A stretch of 64,000 nt of DNA from Ustilago trichophora (taxonomy: Eukaryota; Basidiomycota; Ustilaginomycetes; Ustilaginales; Ustilaginaceae): contig OOIN01000020.1 of assembly GCA_900323505.1 (NCBI GenBank), forward strand, positions 62,001 through 126,000, written 5' to 3'. Position 1 is the stretch's first letter; each line of letters starts with the position of its first letter. A program made the position numbers and the translations under genes. Of the stretch, positions 2,812 to 51,976 are shown one piece after another. A model generated the notes under the pieces. The model ran no database searches and was not told the origin of the DNA. It worked only from the letters and a program-made list of their open reading frames with translations.

Positions 2812-3512
2812 ACTCGTTGTTCTACGTGAGGGGCAAGTCGCGATGTGTGTCGATACCGCTCGGAAAAGCACCTCTGTGTGCCTTGAACGCTGTACAAGAG
2901 TGCGAGTTCAAACCAAGACCACACACTTTATATACAGTATTGTATCCCACAAGATGCCACACAATCAACCCTCATGATGCAGAGACAAGGTCAAAGCCGA
3001 CAATTCAACTCCAATGCAATGCGTAGAGCTGAGTTAAGTTTCAGTTATTAGACGTGAAGGTTTGACTCAGTAGCATGGAAGGTTTTCATGAACGATGCGG
3101 CTGTTTCCAGGGAAATTTTGGAAGCTCGGTAGCCACCGCGTGCCTGCATCGATCGCACCCGCGGCTCGTGGAGGATAACTTGATATGACACAAGACAGGT
3201 GATGAGCATGTGACGAGTGTTTGCCCCCAAGCACACCCTTGCTCAATTTGACAAAACCGCTTCGACACCGATTGCAGTTTTCATGGACACCTAAACTCTA
3301 CTACAGAAGTACAAGGTTCCTCTGAATTGAACATGAGTGAATATTCTTTGAGCTACATCTGGCTAGGTCCGTAGCCGGCCAGCGCCATGAATTTCTGTTA
3401 CAATTGGAGTTTGCGATATACAGTTGAAGTCTATTGAAAATTTTCATCTCGTCCTTCGACAACGAACTCGCCATGTATACATACTGTAACTTTGTGTTGA
3501 AAGAAAACAAGA
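2812..3512. other. Intergenic region between MFS and SDR genes
   Basis: This 0.7-kb gap is upstream of the MFS transporter and downstream of the SDR gene, so it should hold the transporter promoter and the reductase 3' end. The short frames in it (60-83 codons) look like chance. I see no other feature. Confidence 0.5.
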
Positions 3513-45315: not shown

Positions 45316-47790
45316 CTAAACATCGCACTCCATCTCCCTCTCAGCCATTGGCCTACTCCTCTTCTCGGGAAGATCATTGAGCAACTGGGAGAGGGTTGGC
45401 AATGTAGGCCTTCCCGGAGGAGTGGGGGTAGAGTTGCGATCGCTTCCCTCGCCATCTACTGTCGACACGTTCTTGGTTTCGGCGGAAGGGGTGACCTCGC
45501 CGTCCTCAGAAGGGCGCAGACGGGGGAGCGAGCCAGTGAGGATGGGGGGAAGACGGACGCGGTCGTGCTCCTGAAGTTTGGCGCGCGCCTTGTCGGGGAA
45601 GTTGATGGCAATGAGGAGATCGCGGATCAGGCGAACGTGTTCGCGGCGCATGGCTTCAGTGGATTCCTCAGATGGGGATGCGGAGGGGGAGCGGCCAAGG
45701 GGTCGGCCGAGACCTTGCATCTGCGAAACTCGGTCGACGAGGCTGGGATAGAGCGAGCTGGAGGAGGAGGAGGATGACGACGATGGGGTGGGAGAGGCAG
45801 CGGGGGCAGAGTGGCGAGAAGAACCCTCGAAAGGAGTGCTGTCACGTCGCGATGGAAGGCGCCTGTCGGAGTCCAAGAGCGAGCTGATGGAAGCGGAAGT
45901 GCTGGCAGTCGAGTTGGATCGGATGGGTGGCAGCCTGCGCGAAGCCTCGGTAGGCGAGACGCGGGGGTAGAGACCGTGCGATGGCGAGGAGCTGCCACGA
46001 CGACCAGCCTCAGACCAGCCGCTCTCAGAGGAAGCGGCAGGGCTGACAGAGCGGAAGCGGCTGCTGAACTGCGAACCGTCGTCATCGAGCTCATCCTCCT
46101 CCATAGCGTCGTCCTCGTCCTCGACCTTGATGGGCGTGCGGTGAGCATCAGGTCGGATGGTCTCGGTCTCGGTGGGAGCAGCGCGGGTGAGGGCCTCGAC
46201 ACGGCGGTAGCTGTGTCCACCAGCGTCCATAGGAGCAAGTTGGGGGACAATGGCGGGACCACGCGAGACACGGACATTGTCGAAGGAAGGCTGGTGCATC
46301 TGGTGTGCGCCATTCGAGTACGAGCTGGTGTCGGGGTAGTGCATGTGACCATGGTGGCCCTGAGCACGGCTGGGAAGCTGAGCGATGGAGCGCTGACCGT
46401 TGGCGAGCAACGATTCGTCGAAACCAGGAATGTTGGTGAGGCCGTACTGCGAGAGCGACGAGAGGTCAAAGTCGGCATTGTTGCCCTGCGACGAGAAGGA
46501 GGAGCCAGTCGACGAACCCGACGAGGACGAGAAGCTGTGAGAGTGCGAACCCAGAGTGGAGGCGGCGCTGGCACCGAGCTGGAGAAGGAAAGCGTTGAGC
46601 TGAGCGAGGTCCGTAGGCTCCTGCTTGACTTGGACACGAGCGGCGGAAGCATTCTCCATCTTGACGGCGGGGTTCATGGGAGCCTGACCGTAAGCGGCCG
46701 ATGGGTCAAAGGTCGAAAGAATTGCGTTGAGCGAGACATCGTCGATACCGTTGACACCAAAGGTCTGATTGAGTCTCTCAGCCATGTGCGAGTCGTAAGC
46801 GGGAGCCATCTTCTTGCGTCGAAGGTCGCCAAAGAAGTCCTCGACCTGCTCGTGACCACGCTTGCTGCCAGCAAGATTGTGGCTGGTGGTGGCACCGTGG
46901 GCAAGATAAGTGTACGAGGTGGGGTCGGTGGTCACCTTGCTGCGGGGGTCGAGACCAGAGGCGAGGTGCATGTAGGAGCCGCCATCCTGAGCGTGGTGGT
47001 TGGGAGTCGGGCTGCTACCCTGTGGAGTGTCGATGCGCGAAGACATGGGCGAGAGGGAAGCACTGGATGTCGAGTGGGCGTAGTGATCACGAGCATAGTC
47101 CGATGTGGGCAGAGATGGGTATGCCGAGGGATATGCTGATGCCGAAGGATAGAGGCCCTGCTGAGCGGGGACGGCAGGGTAGCCGAGGTAGCCGTTGGCG
47201 GCGTGCATGGGAGGGTAAGGGTAGGCGCCAAAGGAAGCGGCGTGCTCCGACATGCTGTAAGCGCGTGCGGCTGCGTTTTGTGCTGCCTTGTGTTGACGCT
47301 GCTGCTGGTGCTGCTCAGTGTGGATGCGCTCGTGTTTCTTGAGATCCTGTGGACGCTTGAAGGTCTTGCCGCAGACGTCGCAGTTGTGAGGCTTGAGTGG
47401 TGTATGGACTCGGATGTGAGAGGTGATGTGGTCACGCTTGGCACAGCTGACGTCGCATCCTTCCCACTTGCAGGTGAGGCAGAGGTTGTTGGTGGACTTG
47501 CGGCCAACGTGGTCGTCGCAGAGATGCTTGTAGACGACTTCGGGGTCGTAGAAGATCTTGCCACAGTCGTCCCATCGGCAAGTGATTGGCTTGGCGGGTG
47601 TCTCAAAGTCGGCGGCGTCCGATGAGGAGGAGCCGTTGACCTTTGCGGATGGTGATGGTGATGATGATGATGATGAGAAGGACGTGGCTGTGGAGTGGTG
47701 GGAAGGGGCTGGACTGGCGCCGAGTTGGCTGCTGGATGTAGCGTAGCTGGAGTGCTCACTGGCCGAAGCCGGCGAAAGGTGGTTGCTCAT
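45316..47790 (-). CDS. pacC: pH-response transcription factor PacC/Rim101
   Basis: PacC/Rim101 is the zinc-finger end-point of the Pal/Rim pathway: it is activated at alkaline ambient pH, usually by C-terminal proteolysis, and binds GCCARG. The 824-aa protein has three C2H2 fingers at residues ~68-157: [20 protein letters not shown] then [20 protein letters not shown] then H; and [20 protein letters not shown] then H. This order and the Trp residues of fingers 1 and 2 are diagnostic. The remainder is S/P/A/H-rich with acidic patches ([16 protein letters not shown]), as expected of the regulated C-terminal part. The frame opens at a TTG; the first ATG is 47790 (MSNHLSP). Some fifteen GCCAAG cores lie 0.25-1.3 kb upstream, which suggests autoregulation. 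Confidence 0.95.
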
Positions 47791-48033
47791 GATGATGTGT
47801 TGCAACTGCGATGAGATGATCGAATAGGGAGTGGTGGGGCTGACGCAAGCTTGAAGACGATCTGTTTTTGTAGATGAATCAAATCGTGATGATGATTTGC
47901 TGATGGTAGCTACAGTTGATGGGGTAAGTTGATGGTGGAGGAGCAGTTGATAACGAGGACAAATGGGATCGAAGGTAGGAAGGAGCGCGAGGAGGCGTCG
48001 AGTATATGAAGGATCTCGAGGTCAAGTGAGGAA

Positions 48034-49076
48034 TGCCAAGAATCTAAAGTCGGAGAGAGAATGCCAAGACTTGGCAGAGTCGATCCACGTCGGAGGGGCC
48101 TTGGCAAGGACGACGCAAAGTAATCAGGGTGCAGAAGAGGCTTGGCGCTTGTCGCGATGAAGAAGAGGATACAGTAGGGAGGGAAGAAAAAGAGCAGGTA
48201 TGAGGTATGAAGCAAGCAGCTGTCGCAAAGTCTTGGCAACTGTGGAACGAGAGGAAAGGGGTGGGGCAAAGCAGTTGAGAAGGAGCGATGTAAGCCCTAA
48301 AGAGGAATGGAGAGAGAGAGCAATCACTGGGGCGGGGCGGTGCAACGACAAGCGGCCAAGCAGCCAAGGTTTCCAGTTCTTGGCAAACAGAAGGGCGGAA
48401 AGGAATGAGCGAGCGAGATCAGAAAGGGTGGTAAAGTGCCGTGCTGAACAGAGATTGCCAAGACTGGTAATTGCTTATGATGAGGCCACTAGACTGGCCA
48501 AGGCTGAATTTATGCGCAGTTCTGCCAGAAAGCGAGAGAGAGGAAAACAAAAGAAAGCTTGTCTTGAGGATAAGGCGACCGGCACAGACAGAGAGAGAGA
48601 GTGTGTGTGTGAGTGTGTGTGTGTGTGTGCTCGAAAGAGCAAGAGAGATTCAAAGGAAGTGAATGCATTGTCACCAAGAGTGAGTGCGCCAATGCCAAGA
48701 CATGTCTCCTTGTGCTTCCTGGCACTTTGGCGGTCAAGGCTCTATCTCTGAAAAGTGGAAAACGTGTTCATCAATTTCAAAGGCAAAACCTACTCATTTC
48801 AATTTAAGACCAAAGCTCGGCACAGCCTGCTTGAAAGAAAAATTTAAATCACACCTTTTTGATCCCCACCGTTCTCAGTAGTCTGCAATGTAGAAATCGA
48901 TTTTTTTTACCGGAAAAAAAAATAAAACAAGAAGAAAATAATTCTCGTCCATACGAATGCCAAGAACTCACAATCGCAACGACAAAGTGCCTGCTTGTAG
49001 AGAGGCCCCAGGAGAAATTGGACCGCAGGTCTTGGCATTCCAAGGGCCCTCTCCACGGACTGGGGAGAGTGCCAAG
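48034..49076. promoter_or_regulatory. Cluster of ~15 PacC core sites (GCCAAG) upstream of pacC
   Basis: GCCAAG on the plus strand occurs at 48035, 48063, 48355, 48363, 48457, 48497, 48694, 48959 and 49071. Its complement CTTGGC occurs at 48070, 48100, 48141, 48232, 48379 and 49031. Many are extended to TGCCAAGA, the Rim101 preferred form, and 48062-48076 is a perfect 15-bp inverted pair TGCCAAGACTTGGCA. GCCARG is the established PacC target. Chance predicts about 0.5 such hexamers in this length counting both strands. One GCCAGG-type variant (CCTGGC, 48718) is also present. Confidence 0.85.
48601..48630. repeat. GT dinucleotide repeat
   Basis: A nearly perfect GT microsatellite with one interruption sits inside the pacC upstream region, adjacent to a GA run. 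Confidence 0.85.
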
Positions 49077-49182: not shown

Positions 49183-50984
49183 TTCGATCGGATAACGGAT
49201 GGAACAGGTTGCTTCTTACGGACGAGATTGAGTGACTGGGGGCAACAGATAGAGACATGCGCTTTCGGACGAACTCTTCCGTCCAACTCCCTTGCACCGC
49301 GTGTCTCTGGGTGGGCCTTGTCCCACACAACAGTCTCTCTCCATCATACCTACTGTAGCTCCTTGTCCCCGCTCACAGTCAGCCCAACCCTTCTTTGGCG
49401 TTGCAATCGGTCCCACCCTCTGCTGCACAAACTCAAAGATTTCCTTTCATCATTGCAATGGCGACAGCCCACCTCTGTTGCTTCGTGGGGTCCTTGCCCT
49501 AATCCCACGTACAGCTTAAGAGTGCCGAACTCTGACCGAAGGTCATTTGCTTTTGCACCAAAATCAAAATGGAGCGCAGTGTGCCGCCCAGCAGCGTGCC
49601 GACACGGCAAGCCGACACAGGCTCAAGGGAGGACTTTTCGGCAACAGCGTCAACGGAATTCAAATAGCTCTGTATTTGGTTCGTTGTGGTTGATTTGAAA
49701 TGCGTCCAGATGCAGAGAGTCTTTTTGTACAGAGTTGCGAGCGTTTTCAAAATGGGACCATGTTCCTGGGCTTTCGCAGCGCGTCGCAAAGCTTCAAGAA
49801 ACAGAGACAGCGGCACGCAGAGCAAGCGATCTTGCCGAAACGTGCGTCATGTCGATATCCGCTTTCTATCTCTATGCTTATCCGTAACAAAAGGAGCCAC
49901 ATCCTATCCGAAATTTGTCTTTAGTCGCTCCTGCTCACGCTGCCAGCACGCTGTCAGCACATGGCGTCTAGAACGAGTTCATGCCTCTTGCTCACTGTAT
50001 CCTCGCTTGCAAATTCAGCTCAAGCTTCTAGGGTACAGTACAGCCTCGCACCGGCGAACGCTTTCGTGAAGAAATAGGACAACACTATGAGCGTGAGCGT
50101 TGCTGATGATTCAAGCCTCAGAGAGAAAGAAAAATAAAAATAAACTGGCAACAGCAAAGCATGACGACCGACCCGCCGGGCAGCTCGTCAAACTCCGCTT
50201 TGCGTTGCAGATCGCCACTTTGCCCTTACCTCTTTCAATCATCCGGCTTTCATCAGGACCAGGACGCGTTGTCATGACGCATCGAGCAACGGATGGACGT
50301 ATCGGCCGTGCTAACGTGGGACTTCATAGCAATCAGCGGGGCCGTCAGTTTACAACGGAACGGCTGCCAGCTTCATCAAGCCTTTGGGCAGCACGATCCC
50401 CTTGTTAGGCCAGATCAAGAGCCAACTTCGGGCATTTCTGAAGCATTTTAGCACTCTACCACCTGACAAGATGAGAATAGGTGCAGAAAGTACTACTTAC
50501 AGTACCTATTTACCCACGCTCAGTCTCGCTGGTTGTCGCAACCCCGCAACGTGGGAATCTACCACACCTTCACGCTGCAATGTGGACGAATTCTCCAGGG
50601 CTGACTGAGCACCTCAGAGCGTCGTGTGTGGGGGACAGCGATGCACAATGCCAATCGACCATGTCACCCAAGGGGGCGACTCTCCGCCAAGAGCTTCACG
50701 CAAACGAGCAGGCAAGCCATGTGTTGGCGCATGGAAGCCAAGCCGCCATCCTGTCTTGGCATGGATTTGCGGGATGGCGCAATGTAGCTTCGCCAAGGCT
50801 ATCATGTTCATCGCCGATTAGAAGCACGCTTATAGACAATCGCCCCGATTCTTCTTCCAGCGTCTCGTCGAGCAAGGTACGGTTGTGTATTACAGACAGA
50901 GATCACAGCATCGTCATAGTGCCGAGAGGAATGTTTGAAACGGTATCTAGAATGGTACATGAGAGCCACGCCAAAGCAAAAGCA

Positions 50985-51976
50985 TCACTGAGTGCCGGCG
51001 GCTTCAGCAGCTGACGAGATGGTAACAAGAAAGTCTCTGGGCGAATCCAGGTAACGCCAAGTAGGATCCGATGAGCGCAGTCGCTCAATGGTAGACTGAA
51101 TATGAAGGATCCTATTCCGACGGCGTCTTTCATCTTTTGCCTCTTCTTCTTCGTCGAGACGATTGAGGCTAGAATGAATGGCAAGACCAAAAACGACCTT
51201 GCCCATGCGTCTACGCTTGTTGCGACGAGGTTGTATCTCGGGTGAAACGTTGCCAGCTACTGCCTCCGTTTGTTCCCTAACTGCGTTTGACGTTGCGGCA
51301 GTAGCAGCTTCTGATGGTGCGGCTGAAGCTGCTGTTGGTGTTTCGGTTGCTTTGCCCTTGCTGGTTGATTTGGGCGTTGTGTCAGCTCGCATAGTCTGAT
51401 CGAACAGACTGCCAGCTTGAATTGCTTGTGCTTTGGCCAGAAGTGCTTCTTTGCTTTTGTTCGCTGATGAAGGTGCTGCGAGTGGCGAGGGTCGGATGGA
51501 CCGAGTCGTGGGAGTTGCCGTCAAACTGGCTGCAAATGCGCTGTTGACCACATCCGAAGGTCCCGATAGCGTCTGTGATGAGCCGCTCGAGACTGATTGC
51601 ACGGCTGTTCGAAAGTCGCGTTCAGCTGCGGCAAATTGAGCAGGTGGCAGACCACTCGCTCGGATGGCTGCGCCTCGGTCGGGTACTCGCGAGTCGAGAC
51701 TGCCAAAAGAACAAAGTGGGCGAACGTCAAGGTCTCGTGATCAGATCTCCTTCTAAGGCGGCAACGTTGCTTTACTTTGTCTTTGTGCACTCACCTCTCA
51801 GCCGCAAGATAGCAGCAGATGGCTACAATACCTGTACCAGCATTCTTGACAGCCTTGGCATTGCCTCTGCGTGACCAGATATCCACGGCAGCCAGATACG
51901 ACTCGACTCGATCGATCAGTGGGCCTGTGCGCACGCCGCACAGCGACTGAATTTGGGCACGACGTGATGCCGCCAT
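50985..51976 (-). CDS. ORC6: Candidate origin recognition complex subunit 6
   Basis: This is a predicted 298-aa protein with exons 51976-51795 and 51699-50985 and a 95-bp intron (GTGAGT donor, TTGGCAG acceptor). Residues ~18-88 resemble the cyclin-like N-terminal domain of metazoan Orc6: VESYLAAVD, then GIVAICCYLAAESLDS, then DRGAAIRASGLPPAQFAAAE, matching the pattern EEYL, CLDLAAS and DRAYLIKLSGL of the human protein. After it lies a Thr/Ala/Ser-rich linker with T-P and S-P sites (TPTTRS, TTPKS, NVSPE), as expected for a CDK target, then a basic patch RRNKRRRMGKV and a C-terminal helix. In yeast Orc6 sits in the ORC ring and is CDK-regulated. The assignment rests on this pattern match alone; another cyclin-fold protein is possible. 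Confidence 0.62.

Follow-up and report, generated by a model that had tools for sequence, protein, structure and literature searches.

A conserved array of PacC-type sites in the pacC promoter of Ustilago trichophora and candidate autoregulation of pacC

The promoter of the Ustilago trichophora pacC gene carries 15 GCCAAG hexamers in about 1 kb and, farther upstream, a compact cluster of four more, and both groups are conserved in a second, diverged pacC copy of the same genome. Judging from their sequence, they probably constitute a homotypic set of PacC sites, proximal and distal, through both of which PacC would control its own gene; we give this reading a probability of about 0.8. The window, the whole 64-kb stretch of DNA that was analysed, lies on contig C19 of the genome searched here (38,820,965 bases, 45 contigs), and positions without a contig name are those of the window.

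The pacC gene and the sites upstream of it

The pacC locus comprises the following features:

45316..47790, minus strand: pacC/RIM101 gene, a single open frame of 824 aa whose N-terminal part carries three C2H2-type fingers
47979..48016, minus strand: 38-bp block that both pacC copies share unchanged, with a TATA-like CATATA
48035..49076, both strands: proximal array of 15 GCCAAG hexamers, 245-1281 bp upstream of the pacC ATG
Hexamer starts in the array, with strand: 48035+, 48063+, 48070-, 48100-, 48141-, 48232-, 48355+, 48363+, 48379-, 48457+, 48497+, 48694+, 48959+, 49031-, 49071+
48062..48076: perfect 15-bp dyad TGCCAAGACTTGGCA, that is TGCCAAG-A-CTTGGCA, within 43 bp (48048-48090) that do not differ between the copies
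48355..48384: three-site module with equal internal spacing in both pacC copies
49493..49541: longest identical block of the promoter, 49 bp, without GCCAAG
50686..50797: distal cluster of four GCCAAG within 112 bp, some 2.9-3.0 kb before the pacC ATG

The 824-aa protein displays the three C2H2 fingers by which PacC/Rim101 regulators are recognized. Pfam families PF21816 and PF00096 account for residues 69-95 and 135-157, and the middle finger was identified by eye in the translation. Homologues named PacC are present among the best 120 of 1,118 protein matches, the closest named one being ‘probable Transcription factor pacC [Ustilago trichophora]’ (96%). Homologues from Sporisorium reilianum, Melanopsichium pennsylvanicum and Pseudozyma hubeiensis are among the matches as well. 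NCBIfam contributed no family for PacC, nor for the Zn2Cys6 regulator described below, and the best 60 of 95 PDB matches were zinc-finger proteins of other kinds.

All fifteen GCCAAG/CTTGGC hexamers that the preliminary description of this DNA had counted in about 1.05 kb were found again at 48035-49076, and the sequence likewise confirms the perfect 15-bp inverted pair that it placed at 48062-48076. The core is preceded by T (TGCCAAG) at 11 of the 15 sites. Many sites were also said to share one extended form, and indeed nine of them read TGCCAAGA (48034, 48062, 48231, 48378, 48456, 48693, 48958, 49030 and 49070), while GCCAGG occurs once in the stretch, at 48718. The earlier expectation of about 0.5 hexamer, from base frequencies, is about half the true background: a first-order Markov model of the array region gave a mean of 1.06 hexamers with a maximum of 5 (1,000 sequences), and the genome-wide count of GCCAAG (23,035 + 23,101 in 38,820,965 bases) predicts 1.24 per 1,043 bp. 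The excess still amounts to about 12-fold, with a Poisson P(>=15) of about 6e-12 at the genome rate. In its GCCAAG form, the array thus shows the site density above background that defines a homotypic cluster (15 against 1.06-1.24).

Two other origins of the array were rejected. A tandem repeat does not account for most of it, as only two of the 15 sites fall within the 8-bp repeat, 2.5 copies long, at 48349-48368. Nor is the array coding, since it lies upstream of the pacC ATG; the 183-aa plus-strand frame that overlaps it (48200-48751) is regarded as a mechanical ORF.

Conservation between the two pacC promoters

The second, diverged pacC encodes a protein 96% identical to the first and lies on a contig of 692,910 bp. 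Four long aligned blocks, 83-87% identical, were found in the DNA around the two copies. With 38.8 Mb and two copies about 13-17% apart in the DNA around pacC, against 20.7 Mb for published U. trichophora genomes (PMC4966473; PMC8951962), the assembly looks like that of a hybrid or a strongly diverged diploid. The promoter comparison draws on this single pair of related subgenomes and sets the 3,195-bp intergenic region against a 3,381-bp homeolog segment; identity amounts to 83% over the aligned bases and to 78% of positions when gaps are counted.

Against this background, conservation of the array, which the preliminary description had proposed to look for in related smuts, is observed between the two pacC copies: 13 of the 15 sites are unchanged in the homeolog, those at 48100 and 48497 being lost. 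The distal cluster, absent from that description, is conserved at all four sites (4/4) and lies near the point where the next open frame ends (its 3′ end; 50985-51392, minus strand). Over the intergenic region as a whole, GCCAAG is unchanged in 17/19 cases versus 84/195 for hexamers of the same composition (Fisher p 8e-5), and a BLAST-based alignment gives 17/19 versus 89/195. Within the proximal 1.3 kb, GCCAAG is kept in 13/15 cases versus 22/49 for same-composition hexamers (p 0.004), and 41% of all proximal hexamers are unchanged between the copies. The sites are thus more conserved than their surroundings, as expected for a homotypic cluster, in the one subgenome pair compared. Where the window aligns outside the pacC promoter, noncoding GCCAAG is conserved at four of eight places, a small control, and coding GCCAAG at 15 of 18, probably because of protein constraint.

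Not only the sites but also their close arrangement is maintained. The two copies agree in the short spacings at the dyad (28 and 7 bp) and at 48355-48384 (8 and 16 bp), and a number of the longer linkers vary by a few bases between them. The homeolog segment contains 22 GCCAAG in its 3,381 bp, some of them its own and one within the next open frame, including one extra site beside the three-site module. Toward the gene, the near edge of the array lies about 20 bp upstream of the TATA-like block at 47979-48016, the likely core promoter. The block at 49493-49541 is perhaps a site for another regulator. Since the promoter is fairly conserved overall and its longest identical block carries no GCCAAG, other factors probably act on it too.

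Autoregulation and its sign

From the excess of sites, their conservation, the kept module spacing, the array edge next to the TATA-like block and a rare dyad shared with other loci, we infer that PacC binds this promoter and affects pacC transcription. Autoregulation, already put forward in the preliminary description, is therefore well supported as a reading of these sequence features. We suppose that, at acid pH, full-length PacC would occupy the array and the dyad beside the core promoter and keep pacC low, and that, at alkaline pH, processing would deplete full-length PacC and relieve this repression. It may be speculated that, with so many sites, occupancy would change steeply within a narrow range of PacC concentrations.

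If PacC does control its own gene, the odds that the loop is negative would be a little better than even, and those of a positive or mixed loop a little short of even. Repression by unprocessed PacC is slightly favoured over activation by analogy with Aspergillus nidulans genetics alone. In that fungus, pacC is described as repressed by full-length PacC and derepressed upon processing (PMC4832277), and an intermediate PacC form has since been argued to play a part (PMC11011638). The A. nidulans system resembles the one proposed here in that PacC acts on its own gene within the ambient-pH pathway, but it is documented by transcripts and genetics whereas the smut system is read from DNA alone; moreover, the repression requires PacX, which is limited to Leotiomyceta (PMC4832277).

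Alternatively, processed PacC could bind the array at alkaline pH and activate pacC, giving a self-reinforcing switch. We regard such positive feedback as a serious possibility, if not the expected one; it shares the premise of autoregulation, and its likelihood overlaps with that of the main reading. YlRim101 of Yarrowia lipolytica is reported to stimulate its own transcription (PMC8265631), thus resembling the smut reading in its self-regulation and differing from the favoured sign, and the same motif occurs at ENA genes, whose A. nidulans counterparts are activated by PacC (PMC7459330). However, both the transcripts and the reporter alleles of A. nidulans suggest that pacC is derepressed rather than activated (PMC4832277), and sites as close as about 20 bp to the TATA-like block suit repression equally well, a position compatible with either sign. 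For most species outside Aspergillus, the sign of pacC autoregulation was considered unsettled in a 2015 paper (PMC4832277). Further comparisons concern site numbers. In Y. lipolytica, seven target genes have 3 to 7 GCCARG upstream, counted on targets and not on the regulator gene (PMC8265631). The A. niger pacC promoter contains GCCARG as does that of the smut, the accessible portion of its description making no mention of an array, a dyad or conservation (PMC2718513).

The reader of the motif and other loci carrying it

Identification of GCCARG as the PacC/Rim101 target in the preliminary description agrees with the core given in the literature (PMC3432076; PMC8265631). In the present genome, four ENA-type loci, forming two homeolog pairs, have 5-6 GCCAAG in 1.2-1.5 kb upstream; in A. 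nidulans, where the ENA class is PacC-activated, enaA has 5 and enaB 6 in 1 kb upstream (PMC7459330). Direct pairs of TGCCAAGA occur at 18 places genome-wide. In one of the two ENA-type homeolog pairs, that of a Na+ ATPase gene, such a direct pair precedes the first ATG of the frame by 1.5-1.6 kb in both subgenomes. As the same list contains other paired places (C13/C14, C28/C34 and C17/C44, the last resembling Lys/Ala-rich coding sequence), the ENA match is one of several. Taken with the PacC sites of the A. nidulans ena genes, the motif at ENA-type genes supports PacC as its reader. Like the pacC array, the ENA genes have several GCCAAG upstream, but 2.5 to 3 times fewer (PMC7459330). With 15 sites against 5-6 at ENA-type genes, and 5 and 6 at enaA and enaB, it was reasonable to call the array denser than simple activation needs.

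It is improbable that the motif is read by another GCCAAG-binding zinc-finger protein and not by PacC. Besides both pacC copies, the genome has 15 stretches with weaker zinc-finger matches to PacC, some of them sharing a gene, and the dyad and dense sites are present at further genes, as such a reader could explain. Nevertheless, GCCARG is the established PacC core (PMC3432076; PMC8265631), the array stands at pacC itself, and ENA-type genes, which carry the motif, are a known class of PacC targets.

The dyad is rare. In the whole 38.8-Mb genome, TGCCAAG and a following CTTGGCA are separated by 0-30 bases at 25 places, among which a 1-base spacer occurs in 7 and every other spacer in at most 3. 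Six of these seven dyads belong to three homeolog pairs (pacC, a Zn2Cys6 gene and KRE6/SKN1) and the seventh lies inside a ZW10-like open frame; since homeologs are not independent, the seven represent four independent cases. The Zn2Cys6 gene, which also encodes a Fungal_trans domain, corresponds to UTRI_05052_B (100% protein match), uncharacterised and with homologues in other smuts. Its dyad is upstream and conserved in both subgenomes, and its upstream region attains 13 GCCAAG per 1,043 bp in both (C24:361143-364245; C19:329001-335000). At KRE6/SKN1, the dyad is located about 0.86 kb before the likely gene start in both subgenomes. This beta-glucan gene adjoins a second KRE6-like copy, and the dyad upstream of it is part of a conserved three-site block (locus L031, ~3056-3091; locus L032, ~3009-3045). 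In Candida albicans, SKN1 is linked to Rim101, and rim101 mutants of U. maydis have cell-wall phenotypes. A bolder and doubtful proposal, based on these sequences, is that TGCCAAG-N-CTTGGCA could be a two-molecule PacC element of smuts marking the top of the pH network, namely pacC, the Zn2Cys6 gene as a feed-forward arm with its own dense array, and KRE6/SKN1, with pacC also reading the conserved distal cluster about 3 kb upstream.

Within the genome, the density of the array was compared at several scales. The best 1,043-bp window elsewhere in the 64 kb and not touching the array has 8 hexamers. Across 15 other 10-kb stretches (round-numbered, on C1-C5, 150 kb in total and not truly random), the best has 7 hexamers and 2 TGCCAAGA, versus 15 and 9 in the array. 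Five genome-wide pair searches, which detect only TGCCAAG-type pairs within 61 bp, returned 122 places, or 106 groups after joining places within 1.5 kb; the pacC promoter of the window has the most matches (5), and the homeologous promoter and a place on C44, which resembles Lys/Ala-rich coding sequence, have 3 each. By contrast, when three TGCCAAG were required on one strand, neither of the two gaps exceeding 30, the genome-wide search returned a single place, on C12, and did not include pacC. At that scale and in that orientation the array is therefore not unique, and its density becomes apparent over 1 kb, with sites in both orientations. As to whether pacC ranks first in genome-wide density, a check proposed in the preliminary description, it does so by most measures applied (totals, the 15 stretches and pair searches), but not by same-strand triples, which point to C12. 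Equal density at many other promoters, which would have spoken against the idea, is not seen in the sampled portion of the genome; one other locus reaches 13 per 1,043 bp.

Two further occurrences of the word were noted. A further tight TGCCAAG cluster, probably homeologous, is located at C24:555511-555604 and C19:143275-143324, about 33 kb from pacC. At the end of contig C1 (C1:208-2537), GCCAAG matches recur every 706 bases, which suggests a subtelomeric tandem repeat.

A chance or compositional artefact, by which a frequent word would cluster randomly or via simple repeats, is very improbable: GCCAAG is indeed common (1.19 per kb, about three times its reversed control word), AC- and AG-type simple words are likewise enriched within the array stretch, the 8-bp repeat covers two sites and another locus has a 13-per-1,043-bp window, but the Poisson value of 6e-12, the Markov maximum of 5 in 1,000, the maximum of 7 per window in 150 kb and the preferential conservation of GCCAAG all argue against it, and the dyad of the other dense locus, that of the Zn2Cys6 gene, is itself conserved.

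Autoregulation by PacC is known; the density of the array, the distal cluster and the dyad appear to be new, on the weak evidence that no title or abstract describes such features in the open-licence literature, most subscription papers lying outside this scope. U. trichophora has been studied as a malic acid producer (PMC4966473). In this genome, the dyad singles out a few genes that may be PacC targets of the top tier, among them an uncharacterised Zn2Cys6 regulator, and the two diverged promoter copies present in one genome would provide a compact test of the sign of the pacC loop in a basidiomycete.
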